From contig NZ_VRZA01000004.1 in assembly GCF_008064665.1 (NCBI RefSeq), positions 310,001-374,000 on the forward strand: 64,000 bases of DNA. Reading direction: 5' to 3'. The first letter of the stretch is position 1, and each line of letters opens with the position of its first letter. Under the pieces are notes generated by a model that did not search any database, was not told the DNA's origin, and saw nothing but the letters and a program-made list of their open reading frames with translations. Shown in pieces: positions 29,203 to 36,856 of this stretch. Position numbers and translations under genes: made by a program. This DNA comes from Parahaliea maris. GTDB lineage: Bacteria; Pseudomonadota; Gammaproteobacteria; Pseudomonadales; Halieaceae.

Positions 29203-30006
29203 TTATGGGTCCACTGGGGCCGGCGTGCCGGCGAGGGGTTCCAGTGCCCACGGGGTGGCCGCCAGCAGTTCCGCCTGCCAGTCGAAGGTGACCACCAGGT
29301 GGCGGAAGACTGCGTCCACGGGCGCCTGGAGATGGAGTGGCTGGTTGGTGACCGGGTGCGCTATCCGCAGGCCGGTGCATGCCAGCAGCAAGCGGGGGGC
29401 CTGGAGTTGTTCGGCAAAGAACCGGTTGTGCACACCCTTGCCGTGCTTGGCGTCGCCGATAATCGGGTGGCCGAGGTGTTTCATATGGCGCCGTAACTGG
29501 TGCTTGCGCCCGGTTTCCGGCTCCAGTGCCACCAGCGAGTAACGCGCGCTCGGGTAGCGGTCCACGGCGTGGGGCAGTTCCACCGTCGCCAGGCGCCGGT
29601 AGCGGGTGCGGGCGTCCCGGGGCGGGCCCCGGTCCTGCTTGAGCAGGGGGTCCGGGTCGTCCCGGATCGGGTGGTCTATGGTGCCAGCTTCGGGGCAGTA
29701 GCCGCGCACGACGGCGAGGTACTCCTTGCCCACCCGGCGCTCCTCGAATGCCGTGGACAGGGTGCGGGCGGTGCCGCTGTCCAGCGCGAACAACAGCACC
29801 CCCGAGGTAGGTTTGTCCAGTCGGTGGACCGGGTAGACCCGCTGGCCGATCTGGTCGCGCACCAGTTGCAGGGCAAAGCGGGTTTCGCGGCGGTCGATCA
29901 GGCTGCGGTGCACCAGCAGGCCGGAGGGCTTGTTGATCGCCACCAGTTGCTCGTCCCGGTAGATCACAGGGAGCGGTGTATCCGCTGCCGAGTCTGTATC
30001 CGTCAT
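29203..30006 (-). CDS. truC: tRNA pseudouridine(65) synthase
   Basis: TruC isomerises uridine 65 in tRNA-Ile and tRNA-Asp. The 267-residue RluA-family protein matches TruC along its length: VAINKPSGLLVHRS, the catalytic aspartate in HRLDKPTSGVLLF (Asp64), YRRLATVELP and ETGRKHQLRRHMKHLGHPIIGD (quoted in part). ATG at 30006 overlaps the TGA of the upstream metallophosphoesterase by four bases. It is the third gene of a coupled set whose first two members are exported proteins of unknown role, so the grouping does not look functional for TruC itself. Confidence 0.92.
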   Translation of the reverse strand: MTDTDSAADTPLPVIYRDEQLVAINKPSGLLVHRSLIDRRETRFALQLVRDQIGQRVYPVHRLDKPTSGVLLFALDSGTARTLSTAFEERRVGKEYLAVVRGYCPEAGTIDHPIRDDPDPLLKQDRGPPRDARTRYRRLATVELPHAVDRYPSARYSLVALEPETGRKHQLRRHMKHLGHPIIGDAKHGKGVHNRFFAEQLQAPRLLLACTGLRIAHPVTNQPLHLQAPVDAVFRHLVVTFDWQAELLAATPWALEPLAGTPAPVDP

Positions 30007-30950
30007 TGGCAGTGGCCGCCACTGCTGGTGGCGACCCGATCGCTGGCGAGGGTCTGGCTGCCAATTCGGGACGGGATGCCCCGGGGGGCGACGGGGCCGA
30101 AGGCCGGAGGGCTATGCAGGCTGACACAGCGCGCGTTGTCCACCGCGATAAAGCCAAAAGGGGAGTGGCTGTCGGTAGCGAGCCAGGTGCGCCGGTTGCC
30201 GCCCAGTGGCGGCGCGGCCAGGTGCAGTAACTCCCCGTCGCCGTCCCGGCCCAGGTAAAACACGTGATGATGGCCGCTCACGTACCACACTGGCACCGTC
30301 AGCTTCGCCAGTAACTTTTCCAGTGCCGGGTCATCGAGCGAGTCGCCTTCGCGGCCCTTCGCCAGATCGTGCAGGGGCAGATGGCCTACCAGGTAGACTT
30401 CGCTGACCCCTGAATCCAGCGTGTCCAGCAGTGTGCTGAGGAACTGCTTCTGCTCACCGGGCAATTCGCCCTGCACGGTGACATACAGGCTGACCACCAG
30501 GCGCGAGCCGACTTTGCCCGCGAAGTACCAGGGGTAGTTGGAACCTGGCAGCAGCGCCATCGGCGGTGGCTTGCTCTGCCAGTAGTGGGCAAAGGCGGTG
30601 CGGTCACCCTCAAATCCGGCAAAGGCTGAGGCGTCGTGATTGCCGGCGCTGACCACCAGTGGGATGCCCGCCTTCTCAAGTGGCCCGAACACGGTGTCGT
30701 CGAAGGCCTGCCACATGCGCGCCAGGTGCTCCGCCGACAGTGGCGGGCGGCGCTGGGCGGCGATCAGGTCTCCGGCGGCAATCACCAGCTGGGGCCGGCG
30801 CGCGACAATGGCAGCCACTGCCGCGGAAACCCGCTCATGGTAGCCCACCGTACCGTAGCGGCCGTTCAGGTCCGACAGGATATCCACTTCACTGACCGCC
30901 CAGCTGCTCGCGCTGAACAGCAGGGCCAGTAGCGGTGCAAGCTTACGCAT
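30003..30950 (-). CDS. Exported calcineurin-like metallophosphoesterase
   Basis: A 315-residue protein with a Sec signal peptide (1-18, cleavage after SWA), followed by metallophosphoesterase motifs: SDLNGRYG (Asp27, with Asn where most members have His), AAGDLI (Asp61), SAGNHDAS, GHLPLHDL and SGHHHVF. It should act in the periplasm on a phosphoester or nucleotide; the substrate is unknown. The ATG at 30950 lies inside the end of the upstream gene (8-base overlap) and its stop overlaps truC. A longer frame back to 31208 runs inside the upstream gene and lacks the signal peptide start. The pairing with an exported kinase-like protein is notable. Confidence 0.88.
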   Translation of the reverse strand: MRKLAPLLALLFSASSWAVSEVDILSDLNGRYGTVGYHERVSAAVAAIVARRPQLVIAAGDLIAAQRRPPLSAEHLARMWQAFDDTVFGPLEKAGIPLVVSAGNHDASAFAGFEGDRTAFAHYWQSKPPPMALLPGSNYPWYFAGKVGSRLVVSLYVTVQGELPGEQKQFLSTLLDTLDSGVSEVYLVGHLPLHDLAKGREGDSLDDPALEKLLAKLTVPVWYVSGHHHVFYLGRDGDGELLHLAAPPLGGNRRTWLATDSHSPFGFIAVDNARCVSLHSPPAFGPVAPRGIPSRIGSQTLASDRVATSSGGHCQ

Positions 30951-32364
30951 CGCAGCTGACGTCGGCGGCTTTGCCGCTGGAACCAAGAATGGCCTCGGGT
31001 GCCAGGTCGAAGCGCAATTCGCCCGCACTACAGGCCGTACCGAGCACCTCCAGTAACTCCTGCAAGCGCTCGCCGATACGTTCCAGGTCGCTGTCGGGCA
31101 GGTGATAGTCACTGGCGATGGCCTGATACACCGGGCCCTGGGTGGCAAAGTCCGCTCCGAGCAGGCGCAGGCGCCGGTAGAGGGTGGGATCGAAATGGCG
31201 CAGGCCATTGATCATCCCGGTTGACCGGGCAAAATTGGCGTAGCTGCCGCGAATCCCGGCGTCGTTATCGTTGAGCCAAGTGACCCTGAGGCGCTGGGCT
31301 TCAGGTGGAGCCTGCCCCTTGTGCGGAGTGGAGTGCCAGCCGTTAGCGTCCTGCCACAGCCAGCGCCACTGGTAATCGATATTGCCGATGCGGTCCTGCT
31401 GACCCAGCAGGTAGTCCATGACCACGATCTCGGCGACTTCACCCGCCCACCAGGCAACCTGCAGCGGTGTGGCGTCCTCGATGGCGAGCTCCATCTTGTG
31501 ATCGGTCACGGCCCTGGCGATGCCTGTAGTCACGGCTTCCTGCAGCGGTCCCTCGCTGCGCAGGGCAATGAATTCCGGCGTTTTCTGGAAGTCGTAGTTC
31601 TGGCCCTTGCCCCAGCCGGAGGCGCGGGTACCGCTGACCTCCGGGCCGTAGCGCTTGCCGGTGAACAGCAGGCTGGCACCCCAGATGTGGGTCCTGTCCG
31701 GCGTCAGCACTTCGCGAGCCTGGGAGTGGGACTGTGGCGAGGCCAGCAGGGCGTCGGTTTCCACCCACGCGGCATGCAACATGGCCAGCGACTTGCGATT
31801 GGCGCTGGCCTTAAGGCCGCGGCTGACAACGCGCTCACGATACCAGTCGACGGGAAACTGCAGCTCCACTGCGATGGGAATGTGAATACGCAGCCCCAGC
31901 CAGGCCCCCAGGTGGTGGTAGAGCAGGGAGGCGGGGGCATAGGTAGCGCTGGTCTTGCGGCCATTCATGGAGTGTTTGAACACGCCAAGTTCCGCGTGGG
32001 CGTCCTGAATCGCCCGGGTTCCACGCGGGCAGACTTCGCGTTCGAACTCTGCGACCCTGCCGGCCCAGGCGGTGCCCTCCAACGCGTAGATGAGCGCAGC
32101 CGGGCTGGTGCTCCAGGTCTTGGCACAGATGGCCGTGTTGTTATTGTTGAGATCCACATCGCAGTGCTGTTCGCGCTGCTGTGCCAGGTCTGGCGATTCC
32201 ACGCTACCCGGCAGCGGGGGCAGTGCGCGACAGAGAGGCAGAGCGTCTTTGCCCAAAGCCGCTGGTTGTGCCAGGCACAGCGGCGCCAGCAGCAGCAGCT
32301 TGCGAAGGCTGACACGCGGGAATCGGGGTATCGAGAGTGAGCGGGTCTGGTTCTGTTCTGTCAT
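30943..32364 (-). CDS. Exported protein of unknown function with a kinase-like (FAM20/HipA-like) pattern
   Basis: I do not recognise a named family. The 473-residue protein has a basic N terminus and signal peptide (about 1-38). The C-terminal half contains DYLLGQQDRIGNID (317-330) and then WLNDNDAGIRG (363-373). This resembles the catalytic loop D-R-x-x-N and metal-binding D of FAM20-type and related atypical kinases (compare IGNMDRHHYE and HLDNG in FAM20C). The N-terminal half has SLLYHHLGAWLGLRIHIP (146-163), like the helix that follows the kinase lysine; Lys130 or Lys137 could be that lysine. Kinase activity is inference. It overlaps the exported metallophosphoesterase by 8 bases and starts at ATG 32364. 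Confidence 0.6.
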   Translation of the reverse strand: MTEQNQTRSLSIPRFPRVSLRKLLLLAPLCLAQPAALGKDALPLCRALPPLPGSVESPDLAQQREQHCDVDLNNNNTAICAKTWSTSPAALIYALEGTAWAGRVAEFEREVCPRGTRAIQDAHAELGVFKHSMNGRKTSATYAPASLLYHHLGAWLGLRIHIPIAVELQFPVDWYRERVVSRGLKASANRKSLAMLHAAWVETDALLASPQSHSQAREVLTPDRTHIWGASLLFTGKRYGPEVSGTRASGWGKGQNYDFQKTPEFIALRSEGPLQEAVTTGIARAVTDHKMELAIEDATPLQVAWWAGEVAEIVVMDYLLGQQDRIGNIDYQWRWLWQDANGWHSTPHKGQAPPEAQRLRVTWLNDNDAGIRGSYANFARSTGMINGLRHFDPTLYRRLRLLGADFATQGPVYQAIASDYHLPDSDLERIGERLQELLEVLGTACSAGELRFDLAPEAILGSSGKAADVSCDA

Positions 32365-32417: not shown

Positions 32418-35400
32418 TCAGGCCACCGGCGCCGCCGTGGCGTCACCTTGTTCCGGGTGGCGCTGCCAGCCGGTCGCCACCAGGAACAGCGGGGGCACGA
32501 GGAAGAAGGAAATGACCGTGGACAGTAACACTCCGCCGGCGATGGCCATGGCGAAGGGCGGCCAGAACTGGCTGCCCTCCAGAATCAGTGGCAGGAAGCC
32601 GCCGAAGGTGGTGACGGTAGTGGAGACGATGTGGCGACTGGAGTCCATTACCACCCGGTGAATGGCGCCGGTATCGCCCTCGCTGGCGGCGGCATCCTGC
32701 TGCAGCGCGGTCATGATGATGATGGCGGCGTTGATCGAGACCCCGATGGAGCCGATGACCCCGATCATCGCCTGCACCCCGAAAGGGTACCGGAACAGGG
32801 CCAGGCACAGCAGGCTGAGGCCGAAGGAGCACACGAATACCAGACCGGCGATGGCCGAGAGGCGCCAGGAATTGAAGGTGAGCACGATGGTGGCGAGCAT
32901 CGCCGCGAGGATCATGCCCATCGGCGCCATGATTTGCTCGACCACTTCCGCCCGCACATCCGCGTCACCGCCAAAGCTGAAGTGATAGCCGGCGGGGAGG
33001 GGAATGGGGTTGGCGGCGAGGTCGGCCTGTAAGGCCTTGAGGGCTTCTTCCGGCAGCACTCCCCGCATCAGGAAGGCCTGGACGATATTGACCCGTTCGC
33101 CGTCCTTGCGCGAAATGGGGCTGGAAGAGGGTAGCAGGTGGGGCGTGCCCAGGGCACCCAGGGCAACGCCGCCGGGGCGTGTCAGGTCCGCCCGCGGTGC
33201 ACCGGCAATGCGCAGGGAGGCGATGTCCTGGGCGTCACTCCAGCTGTCTTCGTCGAGCCGCACCCGGACCGGTAGCCGCTGGGTGTCCTCCAGCAACTCG
33301 CCACCAGTGAGCCCGCGGAGGCTGGCGTCCAGGGTATCGGCGGCGTCCGACAGGGTCAGGCCCGCCAGCCGGGTGCGGCCCTCGTCCAGTTCGAACACCA
33401 GCTTGGGTGCGCCGCCTGACAAACTGGCGTTGGTGTGCGTTACGTCCGCCACCGCTTCCATGCGCTGGCGGAACTGTTCGCCCAGCTCCCGCAGTCGCTC
33501 CAGGTTGGGGCCGTAAATCTCCACCTCCAGCGGTGCCATCACCGGGGGACCCTGGTCGATGCCGCGCACGATTACGCGGGCTTCGGGGAATTCCCGGTCC
33601 ACTTCGCGCTGCAGGCGCCGGATCAGGTCGTCGGTCCGGTTCTCGTCGCGGGTCAGCACCAGCGCCTCGGCCCAGCTGGGGATCCCCTCTCGGTTGCGGT
33701 ACATGTTGTAGTAGAAGGCCGGCGGGCTTTCACCCAGGGTCCAGTCCACCCGGCGCACCAGGGGTTCGCCGCGCAGTTTGGCGTCCAGCCGTTCCACCAG
33801 GGCCTGGGTGTCGTAGATGGAGCGACCGTCGGGCAACTTGACCTGGACGTACATCTGGTCGCGGTCGGTACCCGGGAAAAATTGCGCGGTGAGGCTGGAA
33901 AAAGCGAGAAAGCCCGCCACCGGCAATGACAGCGCGAGGGCGATGGAAACGCCGGGATTGCGCAGGGCCAACGCCAGGCTGCGCTGCAGCAGCTGACCGC
34001 CGCGGCCACTGTCCAGGCCCTGTTCCCACCAGTGATGTTCGCGGGTGAGGCCGGCGGGGAGCAGGCGGGCCGCGAGAACCGGGGTAAGAGTCATGGCCAA
34101 CAGCAGGGACGAACCCAGCATGACCACCACGGCCTTGGCGATACTGCCCATGAAGTCGCCCGCGGGTCCCGGCAGCACCACCAGCGGCATGAAGGCGAGA
34201 ATGGTGGTGAGGGTGCTGGAGAGCAGGGGAATGCGCAGGCGGCGGACCGAGCCCCTGATGGCCATGACCGGCGCCTCACCTGCCAGCAGGCGCTTGCGGA
34301 TTTCATCGGTCATCACAATAGACCCATCCACCACCAGCCCCAGGGCGACGATCAGCCCGGTCACCGACATCTGGTGAATGGCCACGCCCCAGTAGTAGAG
34401 CAGGGTGACCGACATCAGTCCGCACAAAGGCAGGATAACGGCCACCACGACGGCCGCGCGCCAGCCGAGGGTAGCCAGCAGCACCAGCAGGACCAGGGAG
34501 ACCCCCAGCACCAGGTTCTCGACCACCCCCTGCAACCGGGCTTCGGTATAGACGCTCTGGTCGTAGGTGGTGACCAGTTCGATACCGGCGGGCGCCTGGG
34601 CCCGCCACTGCTCGGTGAATCTGGCGAAGTCCGCACTCCAGCGGTCCACCTGCTGGCCCCCGGTCATCGCCACCGCAACCAGGATGCCGGGCTTGCCATC
34701 CACCAGCGCCATGGCCGGAGGCGGGGTGACCCGGGATTTGTAGACCCGGGCAATATCGCCCACCCGCACGCCGCCGCCGTCACCCGCGGAGACCGTAACG
34801 GCACGAATCCGCGCCAGCGAGTCGAATTCACCGCTCACCTCTACCAGCAGGTCGGTGCCGGCGCCACTGGCCCGGCCGGCAGCGACCTTGGGATCGGCCC
34901 GCTGCAGGGCATTCGCGACTTCCGCCAGGCTCAGGCCGCGGGACGTCATTGCCGCCTCGTCCACCGCCACGCGGACTTCCTCGACCGGCTCACCGTAGAG
35001 GTCGACCCGTTCGGTACCGTTTACATTGCGCGCCGCGTCGGCCAGGTCCAGGGCGATGCGGTGCAGCAGTGACAGCGGCACCTCGCGCCCCTCGGCGGCG
35101 CTCAGGGCGAGGATGGTGGTGTAGGCGGTGAGACGGTCATCGTCGAATACCGGCGCCCCGGCCCCCGGGGGGAACCGGGTGCTGACCTCGCCCAGTGCGT
35201 CGCGAATCTCGGTCCAGGCGCGTTGAATGTCGACTTTGGAGAGTGTCTCCTCCAGCTTGATATTGATAAAGGACACGCCGGCGGAGGAGGTCGAGGAGAG
35301 CTCGTCGATTTCCGGAATCCGCCGCAGCTCATCTTCCAGCGGGCGGGTCAGCAGTGCCTCTACCCGGGCCGGTGGAGCCCCGGGGAAAAACGTGGTGACG

Positions 35401-35534
35401 GTGGCCAGGAAGTTGGTGATGCTGGGGTCTTCCTGGCGGCCGATGGAGCGCAGGCTGCTGAGCCCGGTAGCCAGGATGATGATGACCAGCAGGGTGACAA
35501 AGCGACGGTGCCGGAACAGGGCCTGGGCCAGCAC
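32418..35534 (-). CDS. RND efflux pump permease (HAE1-like)
   Basis: A 1038-residue inner-membrane pump of the AcrB class, driven by the proton gradient. Twelve membrane segments are expected; visible landmarks are the N-terminal helix RRFVTLLVIIILATGL, the TM4 string LGLVVDGSIVMTDEIRKR (a single Asp in place of the Asp-Asp of AcrB), the duplicated large periplasmic loops and the C-terminal IGSIGVSINAAIIIMTAL. I start it at GTG 35534, four bases after the adaptor stop, with GGAG upstream; the longer frame to 35645 lies within the adaptor gene. No outer membrane channel gene is adjacent, so it probably uses a TolC-like protein encoded elsewhere. Substrate unknown. Confidence 0.92.
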   Translation of the reverse strand: MLAQALFRHRRFVTLLVIIILATGLSSLRSIGRQEDPSITNFLATVTTFFPGAPPARVEALLTRPLEDELRRIPEIDELSSTSSAGVSFINIKLEETLSKVDIQRAWTEIRDALGEVSTRFPPGAGAPVFDDDRLTAYTTILALSAAEGREVPLSLLHRIALDLADAARNVNGTERVDLYGEPVEEVRVAVDEAAMTSRGLSLAEVANALQRADPKVAAGRASGAGTDLLVEVSGEFDSLARIRAVTVSAGDGGGVRVGDIARVYKSRVTPPPAMALVDGKPGILVAVAMTGGQQVDRWSADFARFTEQWRAQAPAGIELVTTYDQSVYTEARLQGVVENLVLGVSLVLLVLLATLGWRAAVVVAVILPLCGLMSVTLLYYWGVAIHQMSVTGLIVALGLVVDGSIVMTDEIRKRLLAGEAPVMAIRGSVRRLRIPLLSSTLTTILAFMPLVVLPGPAGDFMGSIAKAVVVMLGSSLLLAMTLTPVLAARLLPAGLTREHHWWEQGLDSGRGGQLLQRSLALALRNPGVSIALALSLPVAGFLAFSSLTAQFFPGTDRDQMYVQVKLPDGRSIYDTQALVERLDAKLRGEPLVRRVDWTLGESPPAFYYNMYRNREGIPSWAEALVLTRDENRTDDLIRRLQREVDREFPEARVIVRGIDQGPPVMAPLEVEIYGPNLERLRELGEQFRQRMEAVADVTHTNASLSGGAPKLVFELDEGRTRLAGLTLSDAADTLDASLRGLTGGELLEDTQRLPVRVRLDEDSWSDAQDIASLRIAGAPRADLTRPGGVALGALGTPHLLPSSSPISRKDGERVNIVQAFLMRGVLPEEALKALQADLAANPIPLPAGYHFSFGGDADVRAEVVEQIMAPMGMILAAMLATIVLTFNSWRLSAIAGLVFVCSFGLSLLCLALFRYPFGVQAMIGVIGSIGVSINAAIIIMTALQQDAAASEGDTGAIHRVVMDSSRHIVSTTVTTFGGFLPLILEGSQFWPPFAMAIAGGVLLSTVISFFLVPPLFLVATGWQRHPEQGDATAAPVA

Positions 35535-35538
35535 GGTG

Positions 35539-36672
35539 TCAGGGCTCCAGCGGCTGGACCGCGGAGCCCGCGGCAATCCGGTGCAGGCCGTCGGCGACCA
35601 CCCGCGCGCCATCGGCAAGGGTGCCGCGGACGTAGGCGCGATCACCGCGCAGCTCGAGCACTTCGACCGCCTCGCGCACGGTTAGCCAGTGACTGTCCTG
35701 TTGCTTGAGCGCCAGTACATTCCACACTCCGCGCTGGCCTTCCAGCAGCGCACTGACCGGTAGCCAGCCACCCGGTTCGGGTATGTGGCGCTGGAGTTGC
35801 AGGGTGATCGCCTCGCCATCCAGGGCGGCCAGGGTTTCCGGCAGTTCAAACACGGCCACTGCCGTGCGCGACGCCGGGTCCAGGTCGGGACGGACCGCCC
35901 GCAGTGGCGCGTTCAGGGTCTGGCCGCGCCACTGCAGCGGGTAGACCTTGCCGGGTGTCAGATCGGCTGCGAGTTCCGGTGGCACGCCCACGTGGGCTTC
36001 CCGGGGCCCGGCCTGGATCAGGCGCAGGATGGGGGTGCCGGGAGAGACCACGGCGCCCGGGTCGGTGTAGAGCGCCGCAACCACGCCGTTGTAGGGCGCG
36101 CGCAGGGCGAGTTTTTCCAGCTCGATATCCAGTCGTTCCAGTTGCGCGGCCACTGACTTGCGCTGGGACTCGAGGGCCTGCGCTCGCAGGCGGGTTTCGT
36201 CAAAGGCTTCCCGGGAAACCGCGCCGCTCGCCTGCAGGTCCCGCTGGCGCTGGGCCTTGAGGTGGGCCAGCTCGAGATCGGCCTGCAGGGTTTCCAGCTC
36301 GGCGGCGGCGGCACTACGGCGGGACTGCAGCAGGCGCGGGTCCTGTTCGGCCAGCAGCTGTCCGGCCTCCACCTCGGTGCCCTCGTTTACTTCAACCCGG
36401 TCCAGCAGCCCGCCGGATTCGAATCCGAGATCGGTTCTGCGCGGCGCTTCCGTAACACCGAGGAAGCGGCGCTCCTCCGCGTATCCTGCGTTCTGCTCAA
36501 ATACCGTGGTGGCCACGGGCAGCGCTGCGGCGGGTTCCCGGGCATCCGATGCCCCGGCCCGCCAGTGCAGGAGGCTGCTCAGCCCGACCGCCAGCAGCAG
36601 TGCCACGGCTGCGCCCGCGGCGGTGCGTACGCGCTGCCGGGAAGTGGTGCTCGGAGAAGAGGGGCTGGGCAT
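35539..36672 (-). CDS. RND periplasmic adaptor (membrane fusion protein)
   Basis: The adaptor that bridges the RND pump to an outer membrane channel. From the ATG at 36672 it has 377 residues. The first about 35 form a signal anchor (VALLLAVGLSSLLHW); then come the lipoyl half GGLLDRVEVNEGTEVEAGQLLAEQD, a coiled-coil hairpin (about 95-170), the second lipoyl half KLALRAPYNGVVAALY and a beta-barrel region (quoted in part). A longer frame to 36756 would start upstream of the promoter at 36714-36741, so I reject it. The stop is four bases before the pump start. First gene of the pump operon. Confidence 0.9.
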   Translation of the reverse strand: MPSPSSPSTTSRQRVRTAAGAAVALLLAVGLSSLLHWRAGASDAREPAAALPVATTVFEQNAGYAEERRFLGVTEAPRRTDLGFESGGLLDRVEVNEGTEVEAGQLLAEQDPRLLQSRRSAAAAELETLQADLELAHLKAQRQRDLQASGAVSREAFDETRLRAQALESQRKSVAAQLERLDIELEKLALRAPYNGVVAALYTDPGAVVSPGTPILRLIQAGPREAHVGVPPELAADLTPGKVYPLQWRGQTLNAPLRAVRPDLDPASRTAVAVFELPETLAALDGEAITLQLQRHIPEPGGWLPVSALLEGQRGVWNVLALKQQDSHWLTVREAVEVLELRGDRAYVRGTLADGARVVADGLHRIAAGSAVQPLEP

Positions 36673-36712
36673 TGGGAGGTGTCCGTTGCGAAGTGTAAGC
36701 CTGGATAGGCGT

Positions 36713-36741
36713 AATGTTAGAGGTCGTAACATTGATGTCAA
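36713..36741 (-). promoter_or_regulatory. Promoter of the RND operon with overlapping operator palindrome
   Basis: On the minus strand a consensus TTGACA (36741-36736) and TAACAT (36719-36714) are 16 bases apart. A perfect inverted repeat AATGTTA-N7-TAACATT (36713-36733) fills the spacer and covers the -10 box, the layout expected for a repressor of the TetR or similar type. No repressor gene lies next to it. The predicted start site is about 35 bases before the adaptor ATG. Confidence 0.65.
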
Positions 36742-36856
36742 GACGCATAATTGCACCGCCGGGTTGCACGTGCGGGGATATCGGCCTTGCAGGGTAGGAA
36801 CCTTTAGGACACAATACGCGCCCTCTGCACCACCAGACCCACGGTGCAGGCGCTAT

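Follow-up and report, generated by a model that had tools for sequence, protein, structure and literature searches.

Here we describe two adjacent minus-strand genes within a 64,000-nucleotide stretch of the Parahaliea maris genome (contig NZ_VRZA01000004.1, positions 310,001 to 374,000; hereafter the window). The first, KIN, encodes a protein with the predicted fold of an atypical kinase, and the second, MPE, encodes a predicted phosphoesterase. It is well supported that KIN is an exported protein of FAM20-like kinase fold, accompanied almost constantly by an exported phosphoesterase, and the interpretation given in an original prediction, made from the letters of the DNA, is thereby partly supported. 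The two genes are as follows:

30943-32364, minus strand: KIN, 473 residues, known from its open reading frame and translation, an AlphaFold2 model and FAM20 matches by Foldseek and VIA
30003-30950, minus strand: MPE, 315 residues, with a PF00149 match and a predicted model having the purple acid phosphatase/Rv0805/GpdQ fold

The 3' end of KIN overlaps the start of MPE by the 8 bases 30943-30950. This overlap, the coordinates and the two lengths agree with the original prediction; its description of the genes as fused is loose, as they overlap and remain two genes.

Fold and conserved residues of KIN

KIN has no match among the Pfam and NCBIfam models at E values up to 1, and phmmer retrieves no protein of the PDB up to E 10. 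Relatives were collected by a scan of one genome per species (84,980 species), which gave 113 KIN relatives, of which 80 were kept; these are mainly of the Rhodobacteraceae/Roseobacter type, followed by gammaproteobacteria and a few of beta-, Desulfobulb-, Bdellovibrio- and Thermoanaerobaculia-type. Because all 80 match the catalytic-loop search pattern (78 match that pattern alone), this sample is biased towards intact loops. Among 140 genomes of the host's family, KIN is present in six (its own genome and five relatives) and is not in the two other genomes of the host's genus; a class-level draw yielded three matches in 369 genomes, one of them weak and the host's own among them. A tblastn search of 72,556 plasmid records at E 1e-5 did not find KIN, with no positive control. 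Two loci (L012 and L013) duplicate the genes of L007 and L010, and the 85 loci therefore correspond to 83 distinct ones; counts over 86 rows retain both copies.

An AlphaFold2 model of KIN was built from an alignment of 63 rows, namely the window and 62 of the 80 scan loci (L079 and L088 were excluded for apparent frameshift or truncation), and reached a pLDDT of 89.9 and a pTM of 0.88. Foldseek comparison of this model with the PDB gave 13 matches at E <=0.001, all of them FAM20, and the top 15 rows are FAM20; the best is chain 5yh0 (E 2.2e-5), and the next protein outside FAM20 is PI3K-delta (E 0.029). In VIA comparisons, which cover the best 50 entries, so that a family outside those 50 may still match, the best entry is hydra Fam20 with sugar bound (5xoo; Z 17.7, root-mean-square deviation 4.1, 286 residues aligned). 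Among the matches listed, zebrafish Fam20C follows at Z 16.9, PI4KII-alpha at 15.2, CtkA at 11.8, HipT at 10.7, HipA at 8.4 and PI3K-delta at 7.8. The predicted fold is thus that of an atypical kinase nearest to FAM20, which is one half of the FAM20/HipA-like assignment that had been made from the letters; the HipA half gained no profile support, as described below. The features of KIN discussed here are:

32251-32364, minus strand: putative N-terminal targeting region, approximately residues 1-38 (RKLLLLAPLCLAQPAALG), from a hydrophobicity scan, with residues 1-37 at pLDDT <50
31975-31977, minus strand: Lys130, the probable ATP lysine (role inferred), in strand 124-131 of the model and present in 85 of 86 rows, with one gap
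31903-31953, minus strand: alpha-C-like helix region, residues 138-154 (TSATYAPASLLYHHLGA), with helix 143-156 in the model, aligned with FAM20 HNAEIAAFHLDR
31375-31416, minus strand: catalytic loop DYLLGQQDRIGNID, residues 317-330, including Asp324 and Asn328, in register with the FAM20 loop
31255-31275, minus strand: LNDNDAG, residues 364-370, with the probable metal-binding Asp366 (or Asp368), after strand 357-364 in the model

The kinase motifs singled out from the letters, DYLLGQQDRIGNID and WLNDNDAGIRG (residues 363-373), lie where they had been placed, and the helix said to follow the kinase lysine is found in the model as strand 124-131 succeeded by helix 143-156. Asp366 or Asp368 is the probable metal ligand, with the choice of one over the other more tentative. 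Fifteen residues are identical in all 86 rows (N134, S139, T141, Y149, R247, W251, Q255, D317, Q322, D324, R325, N328, D366, N367 and D368). The invariance of Asp324 and Asn328 in the 80 scan loci reflects the search pattern, which contained the catalytic loop. Asp324, Arg325, Asn328, Asp366, Asn367 and Asp368 are nevertheless present in all six rows from outside the pattern scan (the window and the five family relatives), and Asp366, Asn367 and Asp368, which were not search criteria, are kept in 78/78 rows found by the loop pattern alone. The conservation of Lys130, Asn134, Ser139, Thr141 and Tyr149 is likewise independent of the search pattern.

Profile comparison by hhalign gave a score of 31.7-31.8 for KIN against four FAM20 chains (E 0.002, probability 14%), these four related chains constituting the whole FAM20 target. 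The best stretch sets KIN AGEVAEIVVMDYLLGQQDRI on a 20-residue FAM20 stretch with the catalytic loops in register, and the full path runs from KIN 143-447 on FAM20 1-255 with alpha-C on alpha-C. Asp324 falls on the Asp of the FAM20 loop, and the register of Asp366/Asp368 with the FAM20 Asp is not fixed by the profile. Among the controls, 200 column shuffles reached at most 25.1 and a further 60 at most 22.3, the reversed profiles scored 13.6 and 11.2, and MPE scored 16.2. The CotH profile (four proteins) scored 18.2 against KIN, less than the maximum of 21.9 among 40 shuffles, and the HipA profile (19 rows, of which L111 and L118 are possibly in wrong frames) scored 22.7, where 40 shuffles reached up to 28.3; both alignments lie away from the catalytic loop, and HipA and CotH score 33.8 against each other. 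Among these three profiles, FAM20 alone exceeds its column shuffles against KIN. Membership of KIN in HipA or CotH was rejected, as Pfam places none of the 63 members there and the profiles give no support.

Kinase models were searched against the 63 KIN members and none matched; 12 weak families appeared, all unrelated, with a best E of 0.0078. Five phosphorylase-kinase sequences of the PDB matched the KIN profile at positions 363-428 (best E 0.0059), which is the C-terminal part, and were set aside as misplaced. A chance occurrence of the kinase motifs was also rejected, since fold, conservation and pairing are concordant.

FAM20 kinases (FAM20C, FAM20B and FAM20A of animals) are thus the nearest fold to KIN, share its alpha-C and catalytic-loop register and, like it, are exported and cysteine-bearing, whereas KIN is bacterial, is paired with a phosphoesterase and, by the profile alignment, has Ser146 at the position of the alpha-C glutamate. 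This is the second FAM20 Glu of the region; the first would presumably land on Thr141 of KIN, by ungapped extension of the alignment. The acidic partner of the lysine is reported as Glu213 in the worm protein and Asp152 in the hydra protein, the latter with Asp299 as catalytic residue, in a study that describes four disulfides for FAM20 and whose main text does not contain the word 'bacteria' (PMC5865150). The conserved FAM20 C-lobe disulfides have no counterpart in KIN, which lacks cysteine between residues 112 and 445, and the Pfam Fam20C model (PF06702) matches 0/63 KIN members up to E 1; a search of the host genome with PF06702 likewise returned nothing, with controls equally silent. As KIN shows neither a match to that model nor these disulfides, we describe it as FAM20-like and do not file it as a FAM20 member.

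HipA is a cytoplasmic toxin-type kinase; HipA, HipT and CtkA share the same broad fold with KIN (Z 8.4 to 11.8), and the Pfam HipA model matches 0/63 members. CotH of the Bacillus spore coat, like KIN, is a bacterial kinase fold, and a gammaproteobacterial CotH (L096) has a signal-like start; the CotH model PF08757 matches 0/63 members. As one report describes CotH kinases as similar to Fam20C (PMC12189002), a bacterial Fam20C relative is already in print, and KIN would be a further form of a kind already known. When the kinases of Legionella were surveyed in 2022, FAM20 was placed among the eukaryote- or Metazoa-specific clusters of the network, and four families from Legionella were reported to lie close to FAM20 and CotH (PMC9758233). 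Among the titles and abstract beginnings listed by searches of an open-access library, we found no description of an exported bacterial FAM20-like family.

The predicted phosphoesterase partner and probable export

MPE matches PF00149 (E 2.6e-12, 48 bits against a cut-off of 21.5), and its predicted model has a pLDDT of 91.9. The best Foldseek match is Rv0805 (E 2.0e-10), and in VIA the red kidney bean purple acid phosphatase (Z 22.7), Rv0805 (22.7), GpdQ (22.4) and SMPDL3A (21.6) lie within about one Z of each other; since the matched folds include both monoesterases and diesterases, they do not settle the type of reaction. By phmmer, the sole match of MPE in the PDB is EgtD, at E 0.23. Three motifs were located:

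30864-30872, minus strand: motif 1, Asp27-Leu28-Asn29, with D27 and N29 each in 74/75 rows
30633-30644, minus strand: GNHD, residues 103-106, each residue in 74/75 rows
30264-30275, minus strand: GHHH, residues 226-229, in 75, 75, 72 and 74 of 75 rows

Asp27, Asn29, Asp61, Asn104 and His105 are each present in 74 of the 75 rows, and His190 and His227 in all. The usual His of calcineurin-type motif 1 (DxH) is replaced by Asn29, as had been noticed from the letters (DLN, residues 27-29). Purple acid phosphatases carry a Tyr ligand in their GDxxY motif, and MPE has Ala64 at this position in 73/75 rows. MPE shares the fold (Z 22.7) and PF00149 with purple acid phosphatases and class III phosphodiesterases and differs at Asn29 and Ala64.

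Both proteins are probably exported, as had been proposed, judging from their N-terminal hydrophobic stretches, the cysteines of KIN and twin-arginine-like starts in MPE. Ahead of the conserved part, hydrophobic stretches were seen in 81 of the 84 KIN rows and 72 of the 74 MPE rows that could be scored (2 KIN rows and 1 MPE row were too short); taken alone, this measure is unspecific, as the same threshold is reached elsewhere in the protein in 64/84 KIN rows and 31/74 MPE rows. All six KIN cysteines (45, 68, 80, 112, 445 and 471) are present in 81 of the 86 rows, the remaining five being L072 (one substitution), L060, L079 and L088 (incomplete) and L081. A twin-arginine-like N-terminal motif occurs in 9/75 MPE rows, so that this enzyme would have two routes of export. 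One KIN from a Thiothrix metagenome-assembled genome (L081:5776-7302, plus strand) is missing the hydrophobic start, cysteines 45, 68 and 112 and a nearby MPE all together; it is likely to be a cytoplasmic offshoot of KIN.

The co-occurrence of KIN and MPE, which the original prediction had proposed as a check, is strong. Hits of the MPE profile at 274-443 bits were found in exactly the six KIN genomes among the 140, in each case adjoining KIN, with the next hit at 36.6 bits; this agreement has a p of 1e-10 under random placement and is confounded in part by kinship, as three of the six genomes belong to one genus. MPE also lies at KIN in 71 of the 80 scan loci, 69 with a frame and 2 (L025 and L068) with a fragment at the contig end; of the frames, 66 are downstream on the same strand, 2 are divergent and 1 lies upstream, truncated where the contig begins. 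In two further loci (L017 and L078) the contig ends directly after KIN. L022 and L078 gave weak tblastn hits that derive from an overlong frame of L072 and were not counted as MPE. A nominal overlap of the two genes was seen in 58 of the 66 tandem pairs, which is an upper bound because frames begin at the first possible codon or run from stop to stop. In the five family relatives, the pair is divergent in three and tandem in two, and no other neighbour from the window was observed next to KIN.

Interpretation of the pair

We regard it as fairly probable that KIN and MPE constitute a module of two genes acting outside the cytoplasm, in which KIN would transfer phosphate and MPE would hydrolyse phosphoesters. 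KIN, exported and of FAM20-type fold, would most likely phosphorylate a protein or glycan in the envelope or outside it, with a nucleotide as the donor, and MPE, exported beside it, would most likely cleave either the phosphoester that KIN produces or some by-product of the KIN reaction. The folds, the kinase-type residue conservation, the export-type N-termini and the close gene pairing were obtained computationally; KIN catalysis, its substrate, a substrate common to KIN and MPE, and the ATP supply are what we infer. The simplest role for such a pair would be to write and erase a single mark. A phosphorylation system complete within the periplasm of Gram-negative bacteria, in which an ATP/ADP-type carrier imports ATP through the inner membrane, KIN marks exported proteins or glycans and MPE is dedicated to erasing the marks, would be a prokaryotic counterpart, possibly near the root, of the animal secretory-pathway kinases; we consider this extension unlikely. 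An exported bacterial FAM20-like family with a phosphoesterase would give a testable case of periplasmic phosphate marking, which the pairing makes simple to test, and the KIN family would serve as a comparator for the origin of secretory kinases.

Several points weigh against the proposed module. The profile signal is modest (hhalign probability 14%), and so is its margin, because shuffled KIN reached 29.4 against the unrelated MPE target. The FAM20 alpha-C glutamate is aligned by profile with Ser146 of KIN (62 Ser, 18 Pro, 5 Ala and 1 Ile among the 86 rows). Seven of the 80 scan loci have at least 1.4 kb after KIN and no MPE (L019, L022, L028, L040, L060, L081 and L084), the upstream room being small in L060 and L022. 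Three of these (L019, L022 and L060) are among the five loci linked to an ATP/ADP-carrier gene (see below), so that the full trio of KIN, MPE and carrier occurs in L011 and L077 only. The PF03219 carrier gene of the host genome is on another contig (C19), away from KIN, and the free periplasmic ATP that KIN would draw on is hypothetical. The activities of KIN and MPE are predicted ones.

The alternatives differ mainly in what KIN would act on and in what MPE would do. KIN may be a kinase of glycans, sugars or lipid head groups of the envelope, resembling FAM20B or PI4KII rather than a kinase of proteins, with MPE removing the phosphate; the sugar-bound hydra Fam20 as best VIA entry and the high Z of the type II PI 4-kinases speak for this, as does the loop DRIGN, which has the spacing of the PI kinase loop. 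However, no glycan or lipid gene is constant beside KIN, and a common fold leaves its substrate undecided; we view this as possible and not as the expected outcome. A pseudokinase, or an enzyme of other nucleotide chemistry such as nucleotidyl transfer or glutamylation with MPE acting on the product, is rather doubtful: the acidic residues of FAM20 near alpha-C appear unmatched in KIN, and FAM20A has been called a pseudokinase partly for such a change (PMC5865150), but Lys130, Asp324, Asn328, Asp366 and Asp368 are kept family-wide.

KIN and MPE might instead be partners other than writer and eraser, MPE acting on a nucleotide or at another step, for example on released ADP or a diester. The fold of MPE is common to mono- and diesterases (Rv0805, GpdQ, SMPDL3A and purple acid phosphatases) and several KIN loci lack MPE, whereas the two genes have stayed close through rearrangement; because such pairing suits any joint pathway, it cannot decide on writer and eraser, and we give this alternative a minor but appreciable chance. 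That operon structure brought the two genes together by accident, with no shared function, is already disfavoured and appears highly improbable. In the window the pair does belong to a long series of genes on one strand whose other members are unrelated, but MPE accompanies KIN in tandem, divergent and upstream arrangements, and the other neighbours were not observed next to KIN in the five family relatives.

Neighbouring genes

Five of the 83 distinct loci (L011, L019, L022, L060 and L077) have a gene of the TLC/NTT ATP/ADP-carrier family directly following KIN or MPE on the same strand, a trait that requires three changes on a KIN tree of 84 rows made by a quick method without bootstrap (L012 and L013 excluded). 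The three carriers tested all pass the PF03219 cut-off of 21 (55.4 bits in L060, 49.9 in L011 and 31 in L022), and those of L019 and L077 were assigned by similarity, with 52-61% identity at best to one of the PF03219-tested proteins. These neighbours share PF03219 with the known carriers but fall below the NCBIfam TIGR00769 cut-off, and no such gene adjoins KIN in the window; the L011 protein matches the solved ADP,ATP carrier protein 1 (PDB 9j3n) at E 3.8e-6. A neighbouring carrier-type protein may perhaps supply KIN with ATP in a few lineages. PF03219 matches occur in all six KIN genomes and in 31 of the 134 others of the family (Fisher p 2.5e-4), an association given no weight because it is confounded by kinship, one genus providing eight of the matches. 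ATP/ADP carriers are described in one paper as present in many free-living bacteria with roles unknown (PMC5381601).

Other genes recur beside KIN. In 53 of 85 loci (for example L050:2951-3595, plus strand), an exported protein upstream of KIN carries the phosphatase-like loop HCMWGVH[SA]SG, with Ser or Ala at the position of the tyrosine phosphatase Arg in all 38 rows of cluster 3; its match to Pfam DSPc is below threshold (E 0.016-0.018), and it was not found in the host genome, in a search with no positive control. A propeller of the SdiA-regulated/phytase-like kind (L059:9309-10238, plus strand; PF06977, E 5.8e-23) lies near alphaproteobacterial pairs in 39 of 85 loci, often with a membrane protein faintly resembling DUF4956 (45/85 loci; E 0.04-0.16, under the cut-off). 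Small exported families without Pfam names are also frequent, such as L049:2133-2879, L051:9141-9821 and L041:461-1012, clusters 5, 6, 8, 15, 16 and 19 occurring in 39, 25, 30, 11, 8 and 11 of the 85 loci, respectively; these proteins could be substrates of KIN.

In the host genome, two HipA_C genes lie close together at G000:C19:105655-108365, on a contig other than that of KIN, and a weak match of the CotH profile lies inside one of them. Upstream of KIN on the same strand, the window carries an RND permease (32418-35645) and its adaptor (35539-36756). On the other side, a TruC-like pseudouridine synthase gene (29203-30006, minus strand) shares 4 bases with the end of MPE and scores 318 bits, marginally below the NCBIfam TruC cut-off of 328.

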